A stretch of 64,000 bases of DNA. Origin: Nitrospira tepida (GTDB taxonomy: Bacteria; Nitrospirota; Nitrospiria; Nitrospirales; Nitrospiraceae). Below are positions 2,871 to 63,005 of this stretch, one piece after another (the first letter of the stretch is position 1; every line of letters begins with the position of its first letter). The DNA is taken from the NCBI RefSeq assembly GCF_947241125.1, contig NZ_OX365700.1, positions 1,674,001-1,738,000 on the forward strand, in the 5' to 3' direction. Both the position numbers and the translations under genes were made by a program. The notes under the pieces are model-generated. The model made no database searches, was not told where the DNA came from, and saw only the letters and a list, made by a program, of their open reading frames with translations.

Positions 2871-3563
2871 ATGGGAAAGAAAATGCAGGCGGCTTTGAAG
2901 AAGGTGGAGCCGCGAGCCTATCCGCTCAAGGACGCCGTCGAACTGGTCAAGCAGGCGGCCTACGCCAAATTCGATGAAACCGTCGATCTCGCGCTCCGGC
3001 TCGGCGTGGATCCCAAGCGCTCCGATCAGATGGTCCGGGGTACAACCCTGCTGCCGCATGGCTCCGGCAAGCAGATCCGCATCCTGGTCTTTGCCAAGGG
3101 CGAGAAGGAGCAGGAGGCCAGGCAAGCCGGCGCCGATTATGTCGGGGCTGACGATCTGATGGAGAAGGTCAAGGGCGGGTGGATGGAATTCGATTGCGCG
3201 ATTGCGACCCCGGATCTCATGGGCGCGGTGGGCAAGCTCGGGAAGGTGCTCGGCCCGCGGGGGCTCATGCCCAATCCGAAGACCGGCACGGTGACGTTTG
3301 AGGTCGCGAAGGCCATCGGTGAAATTCGGAAGGGGCGCGTCGAATACAAGCTCGATAAGGCCGGCATCGTGCACGTGCCGGTGGGCAAGGTCTCCTTCGA
3401 AGCCTCGCGGCTGTTGGAGAACGCCCAGGCGGTGCTGGAATCGGTCGTCAAGGCCAAGCCCGCCTCCTGCAAGGGGCGCTATCTCAAGACCGCCACCATC
3501 TCAAGCACCATGGGGCCCGGCATCAGGCTGGATGCCGTTGCGCTGGCGAAGCAATGGGCGTGA
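2871..3563 (+). CDS. rplA: 50S ribosomal protein L1 (uL1)
   Basis: A 230-residue L1 that forms the mobile L1 stalk at the E site. In many bacteria it also represses its own operon. The conserved [14 protein letters not shown] motif is present. The ATG at 2871 is preferred over the in-frame TTG at 2865 because GAGGAG sits 6 bases upstream. Confidence 0.96.
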
Positions 3564-3596
3564 GCGAGTCGTGACGCTTAACGGAAGAGGACGATC

Positions 3597-4532
3597 ATGA
3601 AACGGGAAGAGAAGGCGGTCGCGGTTGCCGAACTGAATGACAAGTTCAAGCGGGCTCGACTGGCGATCCTGACGGAATGCACCGGCATGCCGGTCGCGCA
3701 CCTGACCGAGCTGCGCAAACAGCTCCGCGGGGTGAAGGCGGAATACAAGGTCGTGAAGAACACCCTGGCCGCGCGGGCCTCGGAGGGCACGGAGGTCGCG
3801 CCGCTCCGGTCTCATTTCAAGGGGCCGGCGGCGGTGGTTCTGGGCTATGACGACCCGGTCAGCCCGGCCAAGGTGCTGAGGGAATTTGTCGGGACGGAGA
3901 AGCGCGACGAGAAACTGAAGATCCTGCTCGGGGTGCTGGAGGGCAAGCTGCTTCAGGCGGCCCAGATCCACGACGTGGCCAGGCTGCCGAAGAAGGACGT
4001 GCTGCTGGCGATGCTGCTTTCCGCGATGCAGGGGCCGGCGCGGAATTTGGTTTATGTGTTGAGCGGGGTGGTGAGGAAATTCGTCTATGTGTTGAGCGCG
4101 ATTCAGGACACCAAGAAAGGGGAGGGAACGATGCCTACTGCGGAAGGAAAGCTGTCTCAGGAAGATTTCATCAAGGCGATCGAGGGCATGAGCGTGCTGG
4201 AACTCGCCGAACTCGTCAAGGGATTGGAGTCGCGCTTCGGCGTGACCGCGGCGGCGCCGGTGGCGGTGGCCGCGGCCGGCGGGGCGGGGGCCGCAGCGGC
4301 GGCGCCGGCCGAAGAAAAGACCTCGTTCGACGTCATTCTCGCCAGCGCGGCGGCGGACAAGAAGATTCAGATCATCAAGGTTGTGCGGGAACTCACGAGC
4401 CTGGGCTTGAAGGAAGCCAAGGATCTGGTCGAAGGCGCGCCGAAGCCCGTGAAGACCGGCGTGGCGAAAGAAGAAGCGGACAGCATGAAGAAGAAGCTGG
4501 AAGAGGCGGGCGCGAAGGTCGAGATCAAGTAA
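3597..4532 (+). CDS. rplJ: Ribosomal protein L10 (uL10), frame open into L7/L12
   Basis: Residues 1 to about 178 are a complete L10, the base of the ribosomal stalk, which binds 23S rRNA by its N-terminal domain and L7/L12 dimers by its C-terminal helix. There is no stop codon after the L10 part. The frame continues through KKGEGT into the start Met of L7/L12 at 4131 and ends at 4532, giving a possible 311-residue L10-L12 fusion. A strong ribosome site (AAGGGGAGGGA) stands before 4131, so free L12 can also be made. Either the fusion is real or a base error has removed the L10 stop. Confidence 0.85.
4131..4532 (+). CDS. rplL: 50S ribosomal protein L7/L12 (bL12)
   Basis: A 133-residue L7/L12. 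The N-terminal dimerisation domain ([20 protein letters not shown]) is followed by an Ala/Gly/Val hinge and the C-terminal factor-binding domain ([20 protein letters not shown]). ATG at 4131 has a purine-rich ribosome site directly upstream. It shares one uninterrupted frame with rplJ. L12 is normally present in several copies per ribosome, which fits an independent strong start. Confidence 0.92.
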
Positions 4533-4619: not shown

Positions 4620-8582
<3,963 letters not shown>

Positions 8583-45273: not shown

Positions 45274-46590
45274 GTGGCGGCCCACGCAATGTCAGGTACC
45301 AGCGACAACACTCCTCGTATGACCAAAGCCTTGCACAATTCCACAGATCGTCTCCGACAGGCTTTACGAGAGAAATCGCGTGAGGTGGAAGTGCTTCACC
45401 GCATCAGCGATTCCATCAGCAATACGTTAGATCTCGAATCCGTCCTGAAGCATATTGTGGAGGTGGTCGTGGAAGTCACGCACGCCGATGCCTGCCTCCT
45501 GTATTTGCTGTCGCCGGGCAAGGACGAACTGGTGCTTCGTGCCTCCAAAAATCCCCACCCGAGGCTGATCGGCCGCATTACGCTCGGCTTGGGAGAGGGC
45601 ATCACGGGCTGGGTGGCGCGGGAGCGCATGAGCGTGGTGATTCCCAGCAACGCAAGCGATGACCCGCGGTTCAAGGTGTTCCACAACCTGCCGGAAGATC
45701 GGTATCAGGCGTTCGTGTCGGTGCCGATTCTGACCAAAAAGGAAGTGGTGGGCGTGATCAACGTCCAACACAAACGTCCCCGCCGATATCAGGCCGACGA
45801 GTTGGCGCTGCTGACGACCATCGCCAATCAAGTGGGCGGCGCCATCGAGAACGCGCGCCTCTATGAAGAAATGCGGAGAAAAGTCCTGCAGGTGGAGACG
45901 CTTTCGCAGGTCTCCGAGACCGTGACATCCAATCGGCTGATTGAAGACATCTTTCAGTTGATCGTGGCCATGGTCGCGCAACTGATGAACTCCAAGATCT
46001 GCTCGATTATGCTCTTGGACCATGAGAAGGGCGAGCTGCGCATCGTGGCCACGCAGAGCTTGAGCGAGGCCTACCGCCGGAAGCCGCACCTGAAAGTCGG
46101 TCAAAGCATCAGCGGCCGGGCCGTGCAGGAGCGGCGGCCCATCATCGTGCCGGATGTGACCAAAGAACACGATTATATGTTCCCGGACATCGCCAGGAAG
46201 GAAGGCCTCTGCTCGCTGCTGTCCGTGCCCATGTTGGTGAGGGACAAGGCGCTGGGCGTGATCAATACCTACACGTCCGTCTCGCACCATTTCACGGCCG
46301 AAGAAACCAAGGTGGTCCAGGCCATCGCCAATCAGGCGGCTATCGCCATCGAACATACGACGTTGCTCGACAAGTCGTTTGAGATGCAGGAGGCGCTGGC
46401 GGTTCGGAAGGTCGTGGAGCGGGCCAAGGGCTATCTGATGCGGACCCGGAAACTGACCGAGGAGGAAGCGTTCCGCCTGATCCAACGGCAAAGCATGACC
46501 TTGCGCAAATCGATGCGGGAGGTCGCCGAGGCGATTCTTCTCGCGGGAGAGATCGAGGAACAGGCGGCAGGTGGAGGCAAGCTCGCCTAA
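45274..46590 (+). CDS. GAF-GAF-ANTAR RNA-binding antiterminator
   Basis: A 438-residue regulator. After a short helical start there are two GAF sensor domains (about residues 45-195 and 205-360). The C-terminal ANTAR domain (about 370-425) has the conserved VVERAKGYLM, EEEAFRLIQRQS and MREVAEAIL helices. ANTAR proteins bind paired hairpins with six-base loops in nascent RNA and block terminator formation. Four such leaders lie downstream at 48423, 57425, 57532 and 62847, so this is the likely regulator of the nitrogen island. GTG start at 45274; ATGs at 45289 and 45319 are alternatives. The GAF ligand cannot be told from sequence. Confidence 0.9.
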   Translation: MAAHAMSGTSDNTPRMTKALHNSTDRLRQALREKSREVEVLHRISDSISNTLDLESVLKHIVEVVVEVTHADACLLYLLSPGKDELVLRASKNPHPRLIGRITLGLGEGITGWVARERMSVVIPSNASDDPRFKVFHNLPEDRYQAFVSVPILTKKEVVGVINVQHKRPRRYQADELALLTTIANQVGGAIENARLYEEMRRKVLQVETLSQVSETVTSNRLIEDIFQLIVAMVAQLMNSKICSIMLLDHEKGELRIVATQSLSEAYRRKPHLKVGQSISGRAVQERRPIIVPDVTKEHDYMFPDIARKEGLCSLLSVPMLVRDKALGVINTYTSVSHHFTAEETKVVQAIANQAAIAIEHTTLLDKSFEMQEALAVRKVVERAKGYLMRTRKLTEEEAFRLIQRQSMTLRKSMREVAEAILLAGEIEEQAAGGGKLA

Positions 46591-48422: not shown

Positions 48423-48518
48423 CCGGGGACAACGGCGTCTGACTGGATGGTCTGACAAAGCACAAGGGACAACGACGTCCTCTTTTCCCAGCGATGGGGA
48501 TTGAGGGCGTTTTTTTTT
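48423..48518 (+). promoter_or_regulatory. ANTAR-type antitermination leader 1 with terminator, before nadE
   Basis: Hairpin P1 spans 48423-48446: GGAC, loop AACGGC (48431-48436), GTCT, extended by CCGG/CTGG across a 2-base bulge. Hairpin P2 spans 48466-48481: GGGAC, loop AACGAC (48471-48476), GTCCT. Both loops have A at 1 and G at 4. The terminator uses CGTCCTC (48476-48482) paired with GAGGGCG (48503-48509) and nine T. Its 5' arm overlaps the 3' arm of P2, so P2 and terminator exclude each other, as in known ANTAR targets. Confidence 0.85.
48476..48518 (+). terminator. Conditional terminator of leader 1
   Basis: CGTCCTC/GAGGGCG stem with an inner TCCC/GGGA helix, followed by nine T at 48510-48518. 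It stands 68 bp before nadE. Confidence 0.85.
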
Positions 48519-48586
48519 GGCCGCGGGATGCTGACGGGGGTGCCTGGGCTTCCTCAGCGGATCTCCAAGACGGTAGGGCAGGACTG

Positions 48587-55932: not shown

Positions 55933-57342
55933 ATGACAGCGAAGGAAGTGTTGGAACTTGCCAAGAAGAACAAGGTCGCCGTGGTCGATCTCAAGTTCGT
56001 CGACCTGATCGGCACCTGGCAGCATTTCTCCATTCCCGTGGAGGAAATGACCGAAGGACTCTTCAAAGACGGGTCGGGATTCGACGGCTCGTCGATCAGG
56101 GGATGGCGGGCTATCAATAACAGCGACATGCTGGCCATCCCCGATCCCAAGTCGGCCTGCATGGACCCCTTTGCGGCTGTGCCGACCCTGAGCCTGATCT
56201 GTAACGTGGTCGATCCGGTCACGCGCGAGAATTACGACCGCGATCCGCGCTACATCGCTCAGAAGGCCGAGCAGCACCTGAAGAGCACGAAGATCGGCGA
56301 CGTGTCCTACTGGGGACCCGAGGCGGAGTTCTTCATTTTCGACCAGGCGCGGTACGACCAAACCAGCCACAGCTCCTATTATTTCATCGATTCGGAAGAA
56401 GGAATCTGGAACGCCGGGCATGACGGCGTCAATCTGGGGTCCAAGATCCGCCACAAGGAAGGCTACTTCCCGGTGGCCCCGACCGATACCCAGCAGGACA
56501 TCCGCAGCGAGATGATCCTGGAGATGCAAAAAGCGGGCATGATGGTCGAAAAGCATCACCACGAGGTGGCGACGGCCGGCCAGGCGGAAATCGACATCCG
56601 GTTTGACACGTTGGTGTCTACGGCCGACAAGATGATGATGTACAAGTACATCGTCAAGAACGTCGCCAAGCGCCACAACAAGACCGTGACGTTCATGCCG
56701 AAGCCGATCTTCGGCGACAACGGCTCGGGCATGCATACCCATCAGAGCATCTGGAAAGAGGGGAAGCCGCTCTTCGCCGGGAAGGAATATGCGGGGATCT
56801 CCCAACTGTGCCTGTACTACATCGGGGGCATCCTGAAGCACGCCAAGGCCTTGGCGGCGCTCACGAACCCGACGACCAACTCGTACAAGCGGCTGACGCC
56901 CGGGTTTGAAGCGCCGGTGCTATTGGCCTATTCCAGCCGGAACCGGTCGGCGGGCATCCGGATTCCCATGTACTCACCAAGCCCGAAGGCCAAGCGGATC
57001 GAGGTGCGGTTCCCGGACCCGACCTCCAACCCGTACCTGGCCTTCTCGGCCATGCTGATGGCCGGTCTGGACGGAATCGAGAACAAGATCAACCCCGGAG
57101 AACCGGCGGACAAGGACCTCTACGATCTCGAGCCGGAAGAGGCGGCGAAGATTCCGACCATGCCTGGGAGCTTGGACGAGGCGCTCGTGGCGCTCGAAAA
57201 GGACCATGAGTTCCTGCTGAAGGGCGGAGTGTTCAGCGAGGATCTGCTCGAATCCTGGATCGCTTATAAGCGGACCAAGGAAGTCGATGCGATGCGCCTC
57301 CGGCCGCATCCATACGAGTATTTCCTCTATTACGACGCATAG
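55933..57342 (+). CDS. glnA: Glutamine synthetase, type I
   Basis: Makes glutamine from glutamate, ammonia and [16 protein letters not shown] at the start, the [10 protein letters not shown] catalytic segment and NRSAGIRIP are typical. The Tyr in [10 protein letters not shown] is at the adenylylation site of regulated type I enzymes. 469 residues. Strong AGGAGGAGG before ATG. Last gene before the second set of RNA leaders; no terminator immediately after its stop was seen. Confidence 0.97.
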
Positions 57343-57377: not shown

Positions 57378-57406
57378 TTGACGGCGGGCGGGGAAGCGTG
57401 GTATAA
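57378..57406 (+). promoter_or_regulatory. Sigma70-type promoter of the transporter-cynS-amt genes
   Basis: TTGACG at 57378-57383 and GTATAA at 57401-57406, spacer 17 bp. Transcription would begin near 57413, 12 bases before the first hairpin of leader 2. Confidence 0.65.
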
Positions 57407-57424
57407 GCCACGCTCAAGAGTCGA

Positions 57425-57520
57425 ACTGGGACAACGGCGTCGTCAGTACGGCTCTCATAACCAAGTCAACGGACAACGGCGTCCGTCATTCTGAAAAGGG
57501 TGGCGGACGCCGTTCGTTTT
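57425..57520 (+). promoter_or_regulatory. ANTAR-type antitermination leader 2 (first of a tandem pair)
   Basis: P1 spans 57425-57447: ACTGG then GAC, loop AACGGC (57433-57438), GTC, one bulged G, TCAGT. P2 spans 57469-57486: ACGGAC, loop AACGGC (57475-57480), GTCCGT, a perfect 6-bp stem. The terminator pairs CGGCGTCCG (57477-57485) with CGGACGCCG (57504-57512) and is followed by TTCGTTTT. It uses the whole P2 3' arm, so the two structures compete. Confidence 0.87.
57477..57520 (+). terminator. Conditional terminator of leader 2
   Basis: A stem of 9 perfect pairs, extendable to about 12 with wobble pairs, and tail TTCGTTTT at 57513-57520. Confidence 0.8.
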
Positions 57521-57531
57521 AGCGGTCACGA

Positions 57532-57626
57532 CGAGACAGGGCGGTCTCGGGCCGGTGGCCGACAGGCTCAGGCAGGACAATGGCGTCCTCCGTTCCCGGT
57601 CATGGGGATCGAGGACGCTTTTTTTT
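57532..57626 (+). promoter_or_regulatory. ANTAR-type antitermination leader 3 (second of a tandem pair)
   Basis: P1: CGAGAC (57532-57537), loop AGGGCG, GTCTCG (57544-57549), a perfect 6-bp stem. P2: AGGAC (57574-57578), loop AATGGC, GTCCT (57585-57589). Both loops have A at 1 and G at 4. The terminator pairs GCGTCCTC (57583-57590) with GAGGACGC (57611-57618) and ends in eight T. No new promoter separates it from leader 2, so polymerase must pass two controlled terminators in series. Confidence 0.87.
57583..57626 (+). terminator. Conditional terminator of leader 3
   Basis: Perfect 8-bp stem GCGTCCTC/GAGGACGC with T8 at 57619-57626. It lies 70 bp before the substrate-binding protein start. Confidence 0.87.
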
Positions 57627-57696: not shown

Positions 57697-59013
57697 ATGA
57701 GCGATGACAGGGGAACACGCGAAGCGGGCACGTCCGAGGCACCGCTGCTCTCATCCGACGAGTATTTCGAGCGAACGGTCAAGGAGTCGCTGGCTCATGC
57801 CGTCCTTGAGAGCGCCGGGACCTCGCGGCGCCGATTCCTCGCGGCGCTAGGAGCGACGACGCTGATGACCGTAATCGAGCAGATCCTCCCCCTTCGGGAG
57901 ATCGTCGCGCTGGCGGCGGATCCGATAGGGAAACCGGAAAAAAAGGATGTGAGCGTGGGCTTCATTCCCATCACCTGCGGGACCCCCATCATCATGGCCG
58001 AGCCGCTCGGCTTCTACAAGAAGCACGGGCTGAACGCCTCGGTGAAGCGGGCCGCCGGTTGGGCCATGATCCGCGACTGGGCGATCAATGGCGAGGTGGA
58101 CGCGGCCCATATGTTGACGCCGATGCCGCTGGCCATCACGTTGGGTGCTGGCTCCGTCCCGAAGCCCTTCTACATGCCCGCTGTCGAGAACATCAACGGA
58201 CAGGCCATCACGCTGCATATCAAGCACAAGAACGTCAAAGCGGCGGCGGACATGAAGGGATTCCGGTTCTGCGTGCCGTTCGATTATTCGATGCACAACT
58301 ATCTGCTGCGGTATTTCCTGGCCGAAGGAGGCCTGCATCCGGACAAAGATGTGCAGATTCGGGTCGTGCCGCCGCCGGAGATGGTCGCGAACCTGAAGGC
58401 CGGCAACGTGGACGGCTATCTCGGACCCGACCCGTTCAACCAACGGGCGGTGTATGAAAACGTGGGGTTCATCTTCAAGCTCTCCAAGGAGATTTGGGAC
58501 CGGCACCCCTGCTGCGCCTTCACCGTGTCGCAGGACTTCGCCGCGCGCTATCCGAATACCTTCGGGGCGCTCTTCCGCGCGATCGTCGATGCAACGCACT
58601 ATGCCTCGAACCCCGCGCATCGCAAAGAGATCGCCGCGGCCGTCGCGCCGACCAACTATTTGAATCAGCCGGTCACGGTGCTGGAGCAGGTCCTGACCGG
58701 CACCTACGCGGATGGGCTGGGCGCCATCAAAAAGGAGCCGAACCGGATCGACTTCGATCCGTACCCCTGGCATTCGATGGCCGTTTGGATTCTCACCCAA
58801 ATGAAACGATGGGGCCATCTCAAGGGGGACGTCAACTACAAGGCGGTGGCGGAGCAGGTCTATCGCGCCGCCGACTGCGATCGGATCGCAAAAGAACTCG
58901 GCTATCCCACCCATGCCAGCACCACGACGAAACACGTGATCATGGGCCGCGAGTTCGATCCGCAGCAAGCCGAGGCCTACGTGAAGAGCTTCAAGATCCA
59001 CGGGATGGCGTGA
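57697..59013 (+). CDS. Nitrate/cyanate-type ABC transporter substrate-binding protein
   Basis: A 438-residue solute-binding protein of the NrtA/CmpA/CynA type. A twin-arginine signal motif (SRRRFLAALGATTL, about residues 43-56) suggests Tat export. The mature part starts VSVGFIPITCGTPIIMAEPLG and has the family's GPDPFNQRA segment. ATG at 57697 is chosen because AAAGGAG precedes it by 8 bases; the frame is open back to 57580 inside the leader. With cynS in the same cluster cyanate is the likeliest substrate; nitrate, nitrite or bicarbonate cannot be excluded. Confidence 0.88.
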   Translation: MSDDRGTREAGTSEAPLLSSDEYFERTVKESLAHAVLESAGTSRRRFLAALGATTLMTVIEQILPLREIVALAADPIGKPEKKDVSVGFIPITCGTPIIMAEPLGFYKKHGLNASVKRAAGWAMIRDWAINGEVDAAHMLTPMPLAITLGAGSVPKPFYMPAVENINGQAITLHIKHKNVKAAADMKGFRFCVPFDYSMHNYLLRYFLAEGGLHPDKDVQIRVVPPPEMVANLKAGNVDGYLGPDPFNQRAVYENVGFIFKLSKEIWDRHPCCAFTVSQDFAARYPNTFGALFRAIVDATHYASNPAHRKEIAAAVAPTNYLNQPVTVLEQVLTGTYADGLGAIKKEPNRIDFDPYPWHSMAVWILTQMKRWGHLKGDVNYKAVAEQVYRAADCDRIAKELGYPTHASTTTKHVIMGREFDPQQAEAYVKSFKIHGMA

Positions 59014-59047
59014 GCAGCACGTGACGCCGGGAGGAGGAGAACAGGAT

Positions 59048-60031
59048 ATGCTGACGGAGACGGCGGTGGCGGGCGGGAAGTCGATCGGAGTCGAGGCAAC
59101 GGTACGGACCGGCCCGGCGGCAAATGGAAAGAAGGTCCGCGCGATGGCCGGACAGACCGGCGGCAACCCATGGTTCATTTCCGGATTCATCCTGTTTCTA
59201 TTTCTACTGGGGTGGCAGCTCTTCACGCTGCGAGCCCCGTTCGATCCCAAAGGGATGACCGAGGAACAGCTCCAGTTGATGGAGTTCAATGGCGACATCG
59301 TCCGCACGGAGAGCGGCACCTATCAGTGGAATCCCGAAAAGGAAAAGGTCAAGGGAGTGCCGGGCCCCCTGGCCGTGCTGGAGAAGGCGCGGGTCGAGCT
59401 GAGCGAGGCCTTCGTGAAGAAGGGGACGAACGATCACGGGATCGGCTACCTCGTGCTCTACACGGTCGCGCGGTTCGGCGCCGGCCTCCTGGCGGCCTCG
59501 GTGGTGGCGATCATTCTGGGCGTGTTGTTAGGACTGAACAAGGTGCTCTTCAAGGCCGTGAACCCCTACATCCAGATTCTGAAACCGATCTCGCCGCTGG
59601 CCTGGATGCCGCTGTTGCTCTACACGGTCAAGGATCCGAAGTGGACTGCGGTGTTGGTCGTCTTCATGGCGGCGCTGTGGCCCACCCTGGCGACGACGGC
59701 CTTCGGCGTGAACGGTCTGCGCAAGGACTATTTGCATGTCGCCGCGATCCTCCAATTGTCCTGGTTCAAGCGGCTCTTCAAGGTGATCTTGCCCGGCGCG
59801 GCCCCGACGATCGTCAACGGCCTGCGGATCTCCTTCGGCAGCGCGCTGGTCGCGGTGGTCCCGGCGGAAATGCTGCTCGGCGAGCTGGGGGTGGGGTATC
59901 TGAGCTGGATCGAATGGAACAACCTCGATATTTCCGGCGTCATCTTCGCCATTCTCGTCGTGGGCTGCGTGGGAGTGATCTTGGATTCGGGATTCAACAA
60001 GCTGGCGGGCTTGGTCACCTATCAGGAGTAA
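59048..60031 (+). CDS. Nitrate/cyanate-type ABC transporter permease
   Basis: A 327-residue inner-membrane permease of the NrtB/SsuC type. One N-terminal segment, a roughly 90-residue non-membrane insert, then five or more segments with the EAA-loop LQLSWFKRLFKVILPGAAP that contacts the ATPase. ATG at 59048 with GGAGGAGG upstream; the frame begins at a GTG at 59021. Forms a transporter with the flanking genes. Confidence 0.88.
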   Translation: MLTETAVAGGKSIGVEATVRTGPAANGKKVRAMAGQTGGNPWFISGFILFLFLLGWQLFTLRAPFDPKGMTEEQLQLMEFNGDIVRTESGTYQWNPEKEKVKGVPGPLAVLEKARVELSEAFVKKGTNDHGIGYLVLYTVARFGAGLLAASVVAIILGVLLGLNKVLFKAVNPYIQILKPISPLAWMPLLLYTVKDPKWTAVLVVFMAALWPTLATTAFGVNGLRKDYLHVAAILQLSWFKRLFKVILPGAAPTIVNGLRISFGSALVAVVPAEMLLGELGVGYLSWIEWNNLDISGVIFAILVVGCVGVILDSGFNKLAGLVTYQE

Positions 60032-60034
60032 CCC

Positions 60035-60880
60035 ATGGCCTTTCTGCAAATCGACAACGTCAGCAAGTACTTTCCCAGCCCATTGGGCGAGGGGCGGGTC
60101 TGCGTGTTCAAGGACGTCACAATCAAGATCGACAAGGGCGAGTTCGTGACGGTCATCGGCCATTCGGGTTGCGGCAAGAGCACCCTGCTAAATATCATCG
60201 CCGGGCTGGATGAGGCGTCAGAAGGCGGGGTTCTGCTCGGAGGCCGTGAAGTCTCGGGGCCGGGGCTGGACCGCATGGTCGTCTTTCAGAATTTTTCCCT
60301 GATGCCTTGGATGACGGTGTTCGAGAACATCGCCCTGGCTGTGAGATCGGCCTATCAGGACTGGGAGCCTTCGCAAGTGGCGGCGCACGTCAACAAATAC
60401 ATTGCGCTGGTGGGGTTGAAGGGGGCGGAGGCGAAACGGCCGGCGGCCTTGTCCGGCGGCATGAAGCAACGGGTCGGGTTGGCGCGGGCCTTTTCCATTG
60501 AACCGAAAGTCCTGCTGCTCGATGAGCCGTTTGCCCAGATCGACGCCTTGACCCGCGGCGTGATCCAGGAAGAGCTGATTCAAATGTGGAACACGTCGAA
60601 GAACACGGTGTTCATGGTCACCCATGATGTGGATGAGGCCATTCTGTTGTCGGATCGGATCATGTTGATGACCAATGGACCGTCCGCTCGAATCGGCGAG
60701 ATCGTGGACGTCACGATCCCGCGACCGCGCTCGCGGGAGTCGATCATCGATCATCCCCATTACTACAAGATCAGAAATCACGTGATTCATTTCCTGGTCC
60801 GGCATGCGGCCCATGCCGGCGGGGTCGGGTCGGCCTCCGGCGGGCGTTCCGTTGAAGAGCCGGTGCTGGTGCGGTTCTAA
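60035..60880 (+). CDS. Nitrate/cyanate-type ABC transporter ATP-binding protein
   Basis: A 281-residue NrtD/CynD/SsuB-type ATPase. Walker A GHSGCGKST, Q-loop VVFQNFSLMPW, signature LSGGMKQRVG, Walker B VLLLDEPF and H-loop VTHDVDEA are complete. Starts 3 bases after the permease. It lacks a fused substrate-binding-like domain of the NrtC kind. Confidence 0.9.
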   Translation: MAFLQIDNVSKYFPSPLGEGRVCVFKDVTIKIDKGEFVTVIGHSGCGKSTLLNIIAGLDEASEGGVLLGGREVSGPGLDRMVVFQNFSLMPWMTVFENIALAVRSAYQDWEPSQVAAHVNKYIALVGLKGAEAKRPAALSGGMKQRVGLARAFSIEPKVLLLDEPFAQIDALTRGVIQEELIQMWNTSKNTVFMVTHDVDEAILLSDRIMLMTNGPSARIGEIVDVTIPRPRSRESIIDHPHYYKIRNHVIHFLVRHAAHAGGVGSASGGRSVEEPVLVRF

Positions 60881-60938: not shown

Positions 60939-61379
60939 ATGGACAAGGAGACGGTGCGCAATACGATCAAAGACAAGCGGATGAAGAAGAACGTGACGAT
61001 CGCCGAAATCGCCAAGACGGTCGGGAAGAACCCGACCTTTGTGGCGGCGGCGCTGAACGGCAATCATCGGTTCACGCTCGACGAAGCCAAGAAAGTCGGC
61101 GCGCTGTTGGATCTCGATGGCGCGACCACGGAGGCCCTGAGCAAATTTCCGGTCCGGACCGACTATCCGAACACCACGGACCCCTTCAAATACCGATTGT
61201 TGGAAATCATCGGCGTGTACGGCGATTCCCTGCGGGAACAGGCCAACGAGATGTTCGGCGATGGGATCATGAGCGCGATCGACTTCTCCATTGATATGGA
61301 AAAGGTGACCGGCAGCCAGGGAGAGGCCCGCTGCAAGATCACGCTCAATGGCAAATGGCTGGAGTACAAGACCTTCTGA
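60939..61379 (+). CDS. cynS: Cyanate hydratase (cyanase)
   Basis: Converts cyanate and bicarbonate to ammonia and CO2. The 146 residues have the helix-turn-helix-like N-terminal bundle and the C-terminal catalytic part. Arg in KYRLLE, Glu in LLEIIGVYG and Ser in GIMSAIDF match the catalytic Arg/Glu/Ser triad. GAGGAGG precedes ATG. Directly downstream of the transporter and upstream of amt, consistent with cyanate as a nitrogen or energy source. Confidence 0.96.
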   Translation: MDKETVRNTIKDKRMKKNVTIAEIAKTVGKNPTFVAAALNGNHRFTLDEAKKVGALLDLDGATTEALSKFPVRTDYPNTTDPFKYRLLEIIGVYGDSLREQANEMFGDGIMSAIDFSIDMEKVTGSQGEARCKITLNGKWLEYKTF

Positions 61380-61421: not shown

Positions 61422-62738
61422 ATGCATCGAATGGGTCTTGCACGGTTCGGGCTGGCAGTGATCGCCGGTCTGGCCTCAGCCGGGTCGGCCTGGGGCCAAG
61501 TGCCGGCAGCGGCGCCGGCGATCAACGAGGCCGACACCGCATGGGTCCTCGTGTCGTCGGCCTTTGTCTTGGCCATGACCTTGCCGGGGCTGGCGCTGTT
61601 CTATGGCGGATTGGTCCGGAGCAAGAACGTGCTGGGGACGATCATGCAGACTTTTGTGGTCGTGTGCCTGGTCAGTCTCTTGTGGATGGCCGTCGGCTAC
61701 AGCCTGGCGTTCGGTCCCGACACCGAGGGCCTGGTCGGCAATCTGGACTGGATCGGGTTGAGCGGCGTGGGGCTGGCGCCGCATGCGGCCTATGGCCCCA
61801 CGATCCCGCATCAAGCTTTCATGGTCTTTCAGATGATGTTTGCGGCCATCACGCCGGCCTTGATCACCGGCGCCTTTGCCGAGCGCATGAGATTCAGCGC
61901 GCTCGTCCTCTTCGCCGGACTCTGGTCGCTGGCGATCTATTGCCCGATCGCGCACTGGCTGTGGGGCGGCGGATGGCTGGCCCGCTTGGGAGCCTTGGAT
62001 TTCGCCGGGGGCGCAGTGGTGCACCTCAGCTCGGGCGTGAGCGCGCTGGTGTGCGCGCTCGTCCTCGGAGCGCGTCAGGGTTACGGGACGGATTATCTGG
62101 CGCCGCACAATCTTCCGATGGTGCTTCTCGCGACCGGTTTGCTGTGGTTCGGCTGGTTCGGCTTCAACGCGGGCAGCGCCCTGGGCGCGAACGAAACCGC
62201 GGTCATCGCCTTTACGGCCACCCATATCGGCGCCGCCGCGGGGGCGCTGGCCTGGCTGGCAGTGGAATGGGCCCATCGCGGAACCCCGACGGTGCTGGGA
62301 ATCGCAAGCGGCGCGGTGGCCGGGCTGGCGATGGTGACGCCAGGGGCGGGCTACGTCGGCCCGGTTTCAGCGCTGCTGATCGGAGGGGTGGCCGGAGCCC
62401 TGTCCTATTGGGCCATCATGAAGAAGGGCAAGCTCGGTTACGACGACGCGCTCGACGTGGTCGGCATCCATGGAGTGGCCGGAGTGTTTGGAATGGTGAT
62501 GACGGGATTGCTGGCTTCCAAGGGCGTCAACGCATCCGGGGCCGACGGGCTCTGGAGCGGCAACCTGCATTTCTTTGGAGTCCAGATCCTAGCCGTGGTG
62601 GCGGTGAGCTTCTTTTCCGCCGCGGGGACGCTGGTCATTTTGAAATTAGTCGATCGGGTGGTCGGCCTGCGCGTGACGGCAGAGGAAGAACGGATGGGGT
62701 TGGATCTCAGCCAGCACAACGAGCGTGCCTATTCCTGA
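61422..62738 (+). CDS. amt: Ammonium transporter Amt (copy 2)
   Basis: A 438-residue Amt close in sequence to copy 1. A signal-like N-terminus ends near SAWGQ. It shows the Phe gate FMVFQMMFAAIT and pore histidines in DFAGGAVVHL and VVGIHGVAG, and the same C-terminal ending LSQHNERAYS that contacts PII. 42 bp after cynS, so it may take up or recapture ammonia from cyanate breakdown. Confidence 0.95.
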   Translation: MHRMGLARFGLAVIAGLASAGSAWGQVPAAAPAINEADTAWVLVSSAFVLAMTLPGLALFYGGLVRSKNVLGTIMQTFVVVCLVSLLWMAVGYSLAFGPDTEGLVGNLDWIGLSGVGLAPHAAYGPTIPHQAFMVFQMMFAAITPALITGAFAERMRFSALVLFAGLWSLAIYCPIAHWLWGGGWLARLGALDFAGGAVVHLSSGVSALVCALVLGARQGYGTDYLAPHNLPMVLLATGLLWFGWFGFNAGSALGANETAVIAFTATHIGAAAGALAWLAVEWAHRGTPTVLGIASGAVAGLAMVTPGAGYVGPVSALLIGGVAGALSYWAIMKKGKLGYDDALDVVGIHGVAGVFGMVMTGLLASKGVNASGADGLWSGNLHFFGVQILAVVAVSFFSAAGTLVILKLVDRVVGLRVTAEEERMGLDLSQHNERAYS

Positions 62739-62846: not shown

Positions 62847-62987
62847 CCTCACAATGGAGTGAGGATGTAAGCGCAGAATAGAACAACAGATCCGGCAGTG
62901 TTGTCGGATTGGCTGGCAAAGGCGCCGGCGGTGAGCGGGAAGGGTGATGAGGCGCCCTCCCTTGCATCGCGGCGCCTTTTGTTTTTG
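62847..62987 (+). promoter_or_regulatory. ANTAR-type antitermination leader 4 with terminator
   Basis: P1: CCTCAC (62847-62852), loop AATGGA, GTGAGG (62859-62864). P2: ATCCGGC (62890-62896), loop AGTGTT, GTCGGAT (62903-62909) with one wobble. Both loops have A at 1 and G at 4. The terminator starts 8 bases after P2: AAAGGCGCCG (62918-62927) pairs with CGGCGCCTTT (62970-62979), then TGTTTTT. Here P2 and terminator do not overlap, unlike leaders 1-3. No good promoter was seen, so it may act as a relay for the transcript from upstream. Confidence 0.75.
62918..62987 (+). terminator. Terminator between amt copy 2 and the small gene
   Basis: A 10-bp stem with a long inner arm that can itself pair (GGGAAGGG with CCCTCCC), then a T-rich tail at 62977-62987. 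Confidence 0.7.
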
Positions 62988-63005
62988 GTGATGGGTTGAT
63001 GAACA

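Follow-up and report, generated by a model that had tools for sequence, protein, structure and literature searches.

A conserved tandem of predicted ANTAR-type attenuators between glnA and a cyanate uptake and cyanase operon in Nitrospira

The window analysed here, a stretch of 64,000 nucleotides of the Nitrospira tepida genome, carries the glutamine synthetase gene glnA, followed by a promoter, two leader units (A and B) and an operon that runs from an ABC-type substrate-binding protein through the transporter and cyanase to an ammonium transporter (Table 1). Relatives of this cyn operon belong to Nitrospira, and the closest named locus is that of N. moscoviensis, whose substrate-binding protein is 86% identical. 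In many relatives another first gene is followed by cynS, and in the one array checked this gene encodes a formate/nitrite transporter; cynS comes later in 34 arrays. That genes of this kind cluster in Nitrospira close to glnA, glnK and amtB is already known from a publication whose text contains neither ANTAR nor antitermination (PMC5767232).

Table 1. Features of the locus and of the remaining ANTAR-related elements, in positions of the window.
Feature	Position	Strand	Sequence or evidence
GAF-GAF-ANTAR protein	45289..46590	+	PF03861 75 bits; two GAF domains plus ANTAR
Leader 1, single ANTAR attenuator	48427..48518	+	GGAC[AACGGC]GTCT, GGGAC[AACGAC]GTCCT, 9-bp terminator, T9
glnA (glutamine synthetase), directly 5′ of promoter	55933..57342	+	ORF
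Promoter, TTGACG −35, 18-nt spacer, extended −10 TGGTATAAG	57378..57407	+	−35 at 57378-57383, TGGTATAAG at 57399-57407
Unit A, whole (P1, P2, intrinsic terminator)	57425-57520	+	Between glnA and cyanate-uptake/cyanase operon
Unit A P1 hairpin, loop AACGGC	57425..57447	+	ACTG.GAC[AACGGC]GTC..CAGT; folding; P1 covariation
Unit A P2 antiterminator hairpin, loop AACGGC	57469..57486	+	ACGGAC[AACGGC]GTCCGT; folding
Unit A intrinsic terminator overlapping P2, 18-bp stem	57475..57520	+	AACGGCGTCCGTCATTCT/AGGGTGGCGGACGCCGTT, weak U-tract TTCGTTTTAG
Unit B, whole (P1, P2, intrinsic terminator)	57532-57626	+	Between glnA and cyanate-uptake/cyanase operon
Unit B P1 hairpin, loop AGGGCG	57532..57549	+	CGAGAC[AGGGCG]GTCTCG
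Unit B P2 antiterminator hairpin, loop AATGGC	57574..57589	+	AGGAC[AATGGC]GTCCT
Unit B intrinsic terminator overlapping P2, T8 tail	57583..57626	+	GCGTCCTC../..GAGGACGC then eight T
NMT1_2-family ABC substrate-binding protein (CynA/NrtA-like), first gene of the operon	57697..59013	+	PF13379 283 bits
ABC permease and ATPase, nitrate/cyanate transporter type	59021..60880	+	TIGR01183 below cut-off, TIGR01184 above
cynS, cyanase	60939..61379	+	TIGR00673 above cut-off; PF02560
amt, ammonium transporter	61422..62738	+	TIGR00836 above cut-off
Further single ANTAR attenuator	62890-62988	+	Terminator with TTTTGTTTTT

ANTAR leaders such as those of EutV/eut in Enterococcus faecalis, NasR/nasF and AmiR/amiE combine hexaloops that have A1 and G4 with a terminator overlapping P2 (PMC3369931, PMC3369936, PMC8934654), and the Nitrospira units share this design of P1/P2 hexaloops with an overlapping terminator. 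A preliminary description of the locus had placed two leaders back to back here, each with its own P1, P2 and terminator, and both its coordinates and its loop sequences were borne out by sequence reading and folding. Both window units carry dual hexaloops with A1 and G4 (AACGGC/AACGGC in unit A, AGGGCG/AATGGC in unit B). In both, the 3′ half of P2 is reused by the 5′ arm of the terminator, which makes the two folds mutually exclusive. RNA folding recovered both terminators (z = −4.6 and −2.5; −6.6 for the whole leader). At full length each unit was predicted to fold into P1 plus the terminator, and when it was cut before the 3′ arm of the terminator, P1 plus P2 became the minimum-energy structure, although in stability this truncated form did not exceed shuffled sequence (z about −1). 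The terminator d-score in the window was 9.7 for unit A and 42.6 for unit B, while unit A terminators of relatives had a median of 39; since its U-tract is poor, unit A may leak in the window. By sequence and predicted structure, units A and B have the features that mark an ANTAR target leader RNA.

In Markov-resampled sequence, a scan for a hexaloop plus overlapping terminator gives about 0.4 matches per 64 kb by chance. The P2 pattern alone is unspecific, with 14 perfect matches genome-wide compared to 45 for the reversed pattern. Matches of the revised scanner at 6962, 23393, 41106 and 61508 of the window, on the minus strand and within genes, look like chance and were set aside. Rfam at gathering score found no leader in the window. 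At a relaxed score unit A weakly matched RF00625 (P11, Pseudomonas; 21.2 bits, E 0.013), far under the gathering threshold of 70, and membership in that family was rejected. NasT, an ANTAR protein, presumably exerts its effect on nirBD by way of P11/NalA.

Loci gathered by the substrate-binding protein and by the unit A RNA model, and then rescanned, yielded 54 distinct tandem arrays in Nitrospiraceae, with N. moscoviensis among them. Because RNA model R1 had unit A and leader 1 in its training set, its strong scores there are circular, including the E value of 3.9e-8 for leader 1; unit B, which lies outside that set, scored E 0.10. The scan missed unit B in one genome (G020, locus L142), where the RNA model places one. 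P1 and the terminator of unit A covary, with 11 pairs changed on both sides, and none of 500 shuffles reached the observed covariation score. The unit B terminator covaries as well, with 64 cells changed on both sides (19.7 when shuffled) and a covariation score above all 500 shuffles. P2 stems are nearly invariant in both units and hence show little covariation and are uninformative in this respect; in unit B the GGAC/GTCC stem is invariant and loop A1 and G4 are kept in 49 distinct relatives. Substitutions at position 3 of the unit A P2 loop are matched by its partner in the terminator (A-U in 9, C-G in 4, G-C in 1), as would follow if one set of bases took part in both folds. A recent duplication of the units was rejected, because conservation across species is seen separately for type A and for type B. 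Supported mainly by this comparison, units A and B are confirmed, at the level of sequence, as real tandem ANTAR-type attenuators.

The window also encodes a GAF-GAF-ANTAR protein, 11 kb upstream of the leaders, which is the single PF03861 match in this 4.73-Mb single-contig genome. Its ANTAR domain aligns with those of EutV, Rv1626 and NasR. Among the RNA-contact positions of EutV (PMC8934654), Arg142, Lys143, Lys149, Glu160 and Met172 are kept, Lys147 is replaced by Arg and Tyr164 by Phe (still aromatic), and six of the seven contacts mapped here are kept or conservative. Across 147 family genomes, ANTAR protein and leaders occur together in 94, are both absent from 41 and are discordant in 12 (Fisher p 1.6e-23, a value overstated because the genomes are related). 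Most genomes have one ANTAR protein, and in four cynS-positive genomes without ANTAR no such unit was found within about 1.5 kb on either side of cynS. The GAF-GAF-ANTAR protein is likely the antiterminator of these leaders, which it would bind in response to nitrogen status or to nitrite/nitrate, perceived through GAF. Many complete genomes of genus g6 (G024, G034, G040 and others) are devoid of both ANTAR protein and leaders; cynS is also absent from 8 of 12 tested ANTAR-less g6 genomes, an apparent joint loss of the regulon.

Upstream of unit A, a strong promoter of the form TTGAC(G/C)-N16-18-TGnTA is conserved in all 54 arrays, 65-74 nt 5′ of the P2 loop, and in the window transcription is predicted to start at about 57413-57415. 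A promoter scan demanding T at the end of the −10 reported none in the window. Between units A and B the 54 arrays hold no position-conserved promoter candidate, and the best inter-unit candidate is always weaker; on this comparison we rejected a promoter hidden in unit A. The preliminary description was thus right that no promoter separates the units, and it had overlooked that glnA lies directly 5′ with no intervening terminator. glnA adjoins the array on its upstream side in 53 of 54 cases, the remaining array ending at a contig end, and in these 53 the glnA stop lies 19-35 nt ahead of the −35 box with no terminator-like site in between. Since no terminator separates glnA from the promoter, the pair probably also blocks polymerase that reads through from the glnA operon, which suggests a second, insulating role, and units A and B appear to be the sole terminators of that operon too.

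Polymerase that starts at about 57414, or runs on from glnA, would meet unit A first and unit B second. Each terminator hairpin would form when active ANTAR protein is absent, and transcription would stop in vivo at either unit, whereas an active GAF-GAF-ANTAR dimer would hold P2 in each and let polymerase enter the cyanate uptake, cyanase and ammonium transport operon. We consider it probable that the array consists of two ANTAR-dependent attenuators in series behind one promoter, giving lower leak and insulation from the glnA operon. Speaking against this are the poor U-tract of unit A in the window, the G1 loop of P1 in unit B of most relatives together with its variable P1-P2 spacing, the scant covariation of the unit B P2 stem, and the genomes that manage with a single unit. 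In a series model with one ANTAR protein and independent sites, multiplying the read-through fractions of the two units gives the output. With equal affinities the effective Hill coefficient is at most 1.06-1.17 (about 1.2) and with affinities 10- to 30-fold apart it is about 1 or below, while the leak is squared, so that a 10-fold range becomes 100-fold and a 33-fold range about 1100-fold. The purpose of the doubled units would then be mainly to cut off-state leak to about the product of two leaks and to insulate the operon, with steepening at most mild. The proposal in the preliminary description of an AND-like, steeper response can be kept as far as two conditional terminators do stand in series before one operon, but a steepening is only weakly expected (Hill at most 1.17), and 'AND' is a loose term since, with one ANTAR protein in the genome, both units read one signal. 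'Tighter off' is the safer claim under this model, and 'steeper' would need cooperativity.

Doubling might instead serve insulation and not tighter or steeper control, with unit A mainly ending glnA read-through and unit B acting as the leader proper. We regard this as possible, though on the unlikely side. The unterminated 19-35 nt between glnA stop and −35 box in 53 of 53 arrays would fit it, as would the occurrence of pairs at the glnA junction when other leaders are single; the conserved promoter 5′ of unit A, however, means that both units are transcribed from that promoter as well. This alternative is compatible with two ANTAR-dependent attenuators in series and does not exclude them.

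The two units differ in a consistent manner. The P1 loop of unit A is ANNGNN in all 54 arrays, and unit A has the A1 and G4 of ANTAR leaders in every one. In unit B, position 1 of the P1 loop is G in 45 of the 54, A in 6, the window among them, and T in 1; a C[NNNGNN]G hairpin with 6 bp or more nevertheless lies upstream of P2 in 52 of 54 arrays (shuffled spacers: mean 4.1, maximum 12). The P1-P2 spacing is 27-34 nt in unit A, for arrays with P1 scored, and 12 to 45 nt in unit B (31 in the window). EutV contacts the loop at G4, and A1 is believed to prevent the loop from closing (PMC8934654), in nasF the loop A1 is essential (PMC3369936), and spacing as well as A1 matters in EutV/NasR (PMC8934654, PMC3369936). 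Because position 1 of the P1 loop is mostly G, while A1 matters in EutV and nasF, we infer that unit B probably binds the ANTAR protein more weakly in most species. That the loops of the two units differ, as first described, holds across relatives; the accompanying suggestion that affinities may differ is strengthened by G1 in 45 of 54 arrays but not by the window itself, which has A. At three loci (L018, L025, L147) an extra conserved-looking hairpin lies between terminator A and P2 of unit B, for example GAGGCTTC[TTCGTC]GAAGCCTC, or GGCGAGGT..ACCTTGCC.

Such a pattern, with P1A strictly ANNGNN (54 of 54), P1B relaxed and P2 strict in both units, could also arise if an ANTAR dimer recruited at P1/P2 of unit A passed to P2 of unit B and made a good P1B dispensable, in keeping with the role of P1 as recruitment hairpin in the successive-binding model of Walshe et al. 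(PMC8934654). This hand-over is a rather doubtful reading, since the P1B hairpin is still kept, with its G4, and the inter-unit distance exceeds the P1-P2 spacing tolerated by EutV. A fully cooperative relay, in which unit A loads the ANTAR protein and hands it over to P2 of unit B and the second read-through depends on the first, we judge unlikely. If true, the pair would be a proofreading antiterminator at the glnA/cyn junction, with P1B free to drift to a G1 loop.

Control of one unit alone by ANTAR seems quite improbable. In that case unit B would be an ordinary terminator that leaks in part and carries a relic P1, or the poor U-tract would make unit A weak, leaving in effect one regulating leader, as the G1 loop in 45 of 54 arrays and the variable spacing of unit B, or the d-score of 9.7 of the window unit A, might suggest. 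However, P2 of unit B keeps GGAC..GTCC, A1 and G4 in 49 sequences though a terminator needs no GGACA side, P1B-type hairpins are present in 52 of 54 arrays against a shuffled mean of 4.1, and all 108 terminators of the 54 arrays have d-scores above 0. Chance hairpins beside an ordinary glnA terminator, free of ANTAR regulation, are extremely improbable: A1/G4 hexaloop hairpins are common in GC-rich sequence and the P2 pattern is unenriched genome-wide, but conservation, covariation and the co-occurrence with the ANTAR protein contradict this explanation.

Other ANTAR leaders in these genomes, before nadE, amt2 and amt1, are single. In the window, leader 1 precedes a nadE-porin-amt-glnK-glnD-glnA gene run, and because the called ATG of nadE at 48494 lies inside the leader 1 terminator, a start near 48584 is the more likely one. 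The further single attenuator (P1 ATCCGGC[AGTGTT]GTCGGAT, P2 GGCTGGC[AAAGGC]GCCGGC) sits 3′ of the second amt and 5′ of another amt-like gene. One unit suffices in some genomes (L020, L035, L036). Inspected by eye, the single leader of L035 combines a type A P1 with a type B P2 and terminator, and in L036 unit A runs, with the junction in the U-tract, into sequence that lies 3′ of unit B in relatives. As both look like inter-repeat deletions, these single leaders were probably derived by deletion between repeats. L035 and L036 correspond to small genomes (G050, 1.8 Mb, and G064, 1.7 Mb). An 8.3-kb contig (L165, G090:C126) carries four ANTAR units, at 3029, 3138, 4614 and 7904, arranged as a tandem before cynS, one unit before cynA and one after cynD. 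Two tandem ANTAR-like units, the second with P2 loop TATGGC, also precede cynA by about 300-430 nt in L039 (at about 3500-3700), which represents a genome of the Nitrospirales that does not belong to the main set.

In the EutV, NasR and AmiR systems there is one leader per gene, and the four terminators of eut are spread along the locus. Nitrospira, in contrast, has two complete leaders before one operon, the second mostly with a variant P1 loop. In the E. coli bgl operon, the antiterminator BglG relieves two terminators that flank bglG. There, as here, one protein would act on two terminators, but the RNA element and the protein family are unrelated. Several ANTAR leaders on nitrogen genes also make up the regulons of Pelobacter carbinolicus and Desulfotomaculum reducens (Ramesh et al. 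2012; PMC3369931), the main text of which mentions neither a tandem array nor Nitrospira. Tandem TPP and c-di-GMP riboswitches ('pseudo-cooperative') likewise place two self-sufficient terminator switches in series for one signal and one gene (PMC9481103, PMC4759541); they bind a small molecule directly whereas the Nitrospira ligand would be a protein, so that the logic is alike and the family is not. A literature search confined largely to open-access main texts found no earlier report of back-to-back ANTAR leaders and no paper that pairs 'ANTAR domain' with Nitrospira. The Nitrospira array is a known type of element, the ANTAR attenuator, in a tandem form of which we met no description within this regulator family.

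Metabolite riboswitches provide known cases of complete switches in series, and the Nitrospira array would be a conserved, protein-operated version in which the units are consistently unlike. It offers a natural test of P1 as recruitment hairpin in the successive-binding model and of the benefit of doubling an attenuator. Behind two serial stop signals, genes for nitrogen from cyanate or nitrite should stay very tightly off, and our results point to a regulator by which Nitrospira, a central nitrifier, would control the uptake of nitrogen sources.
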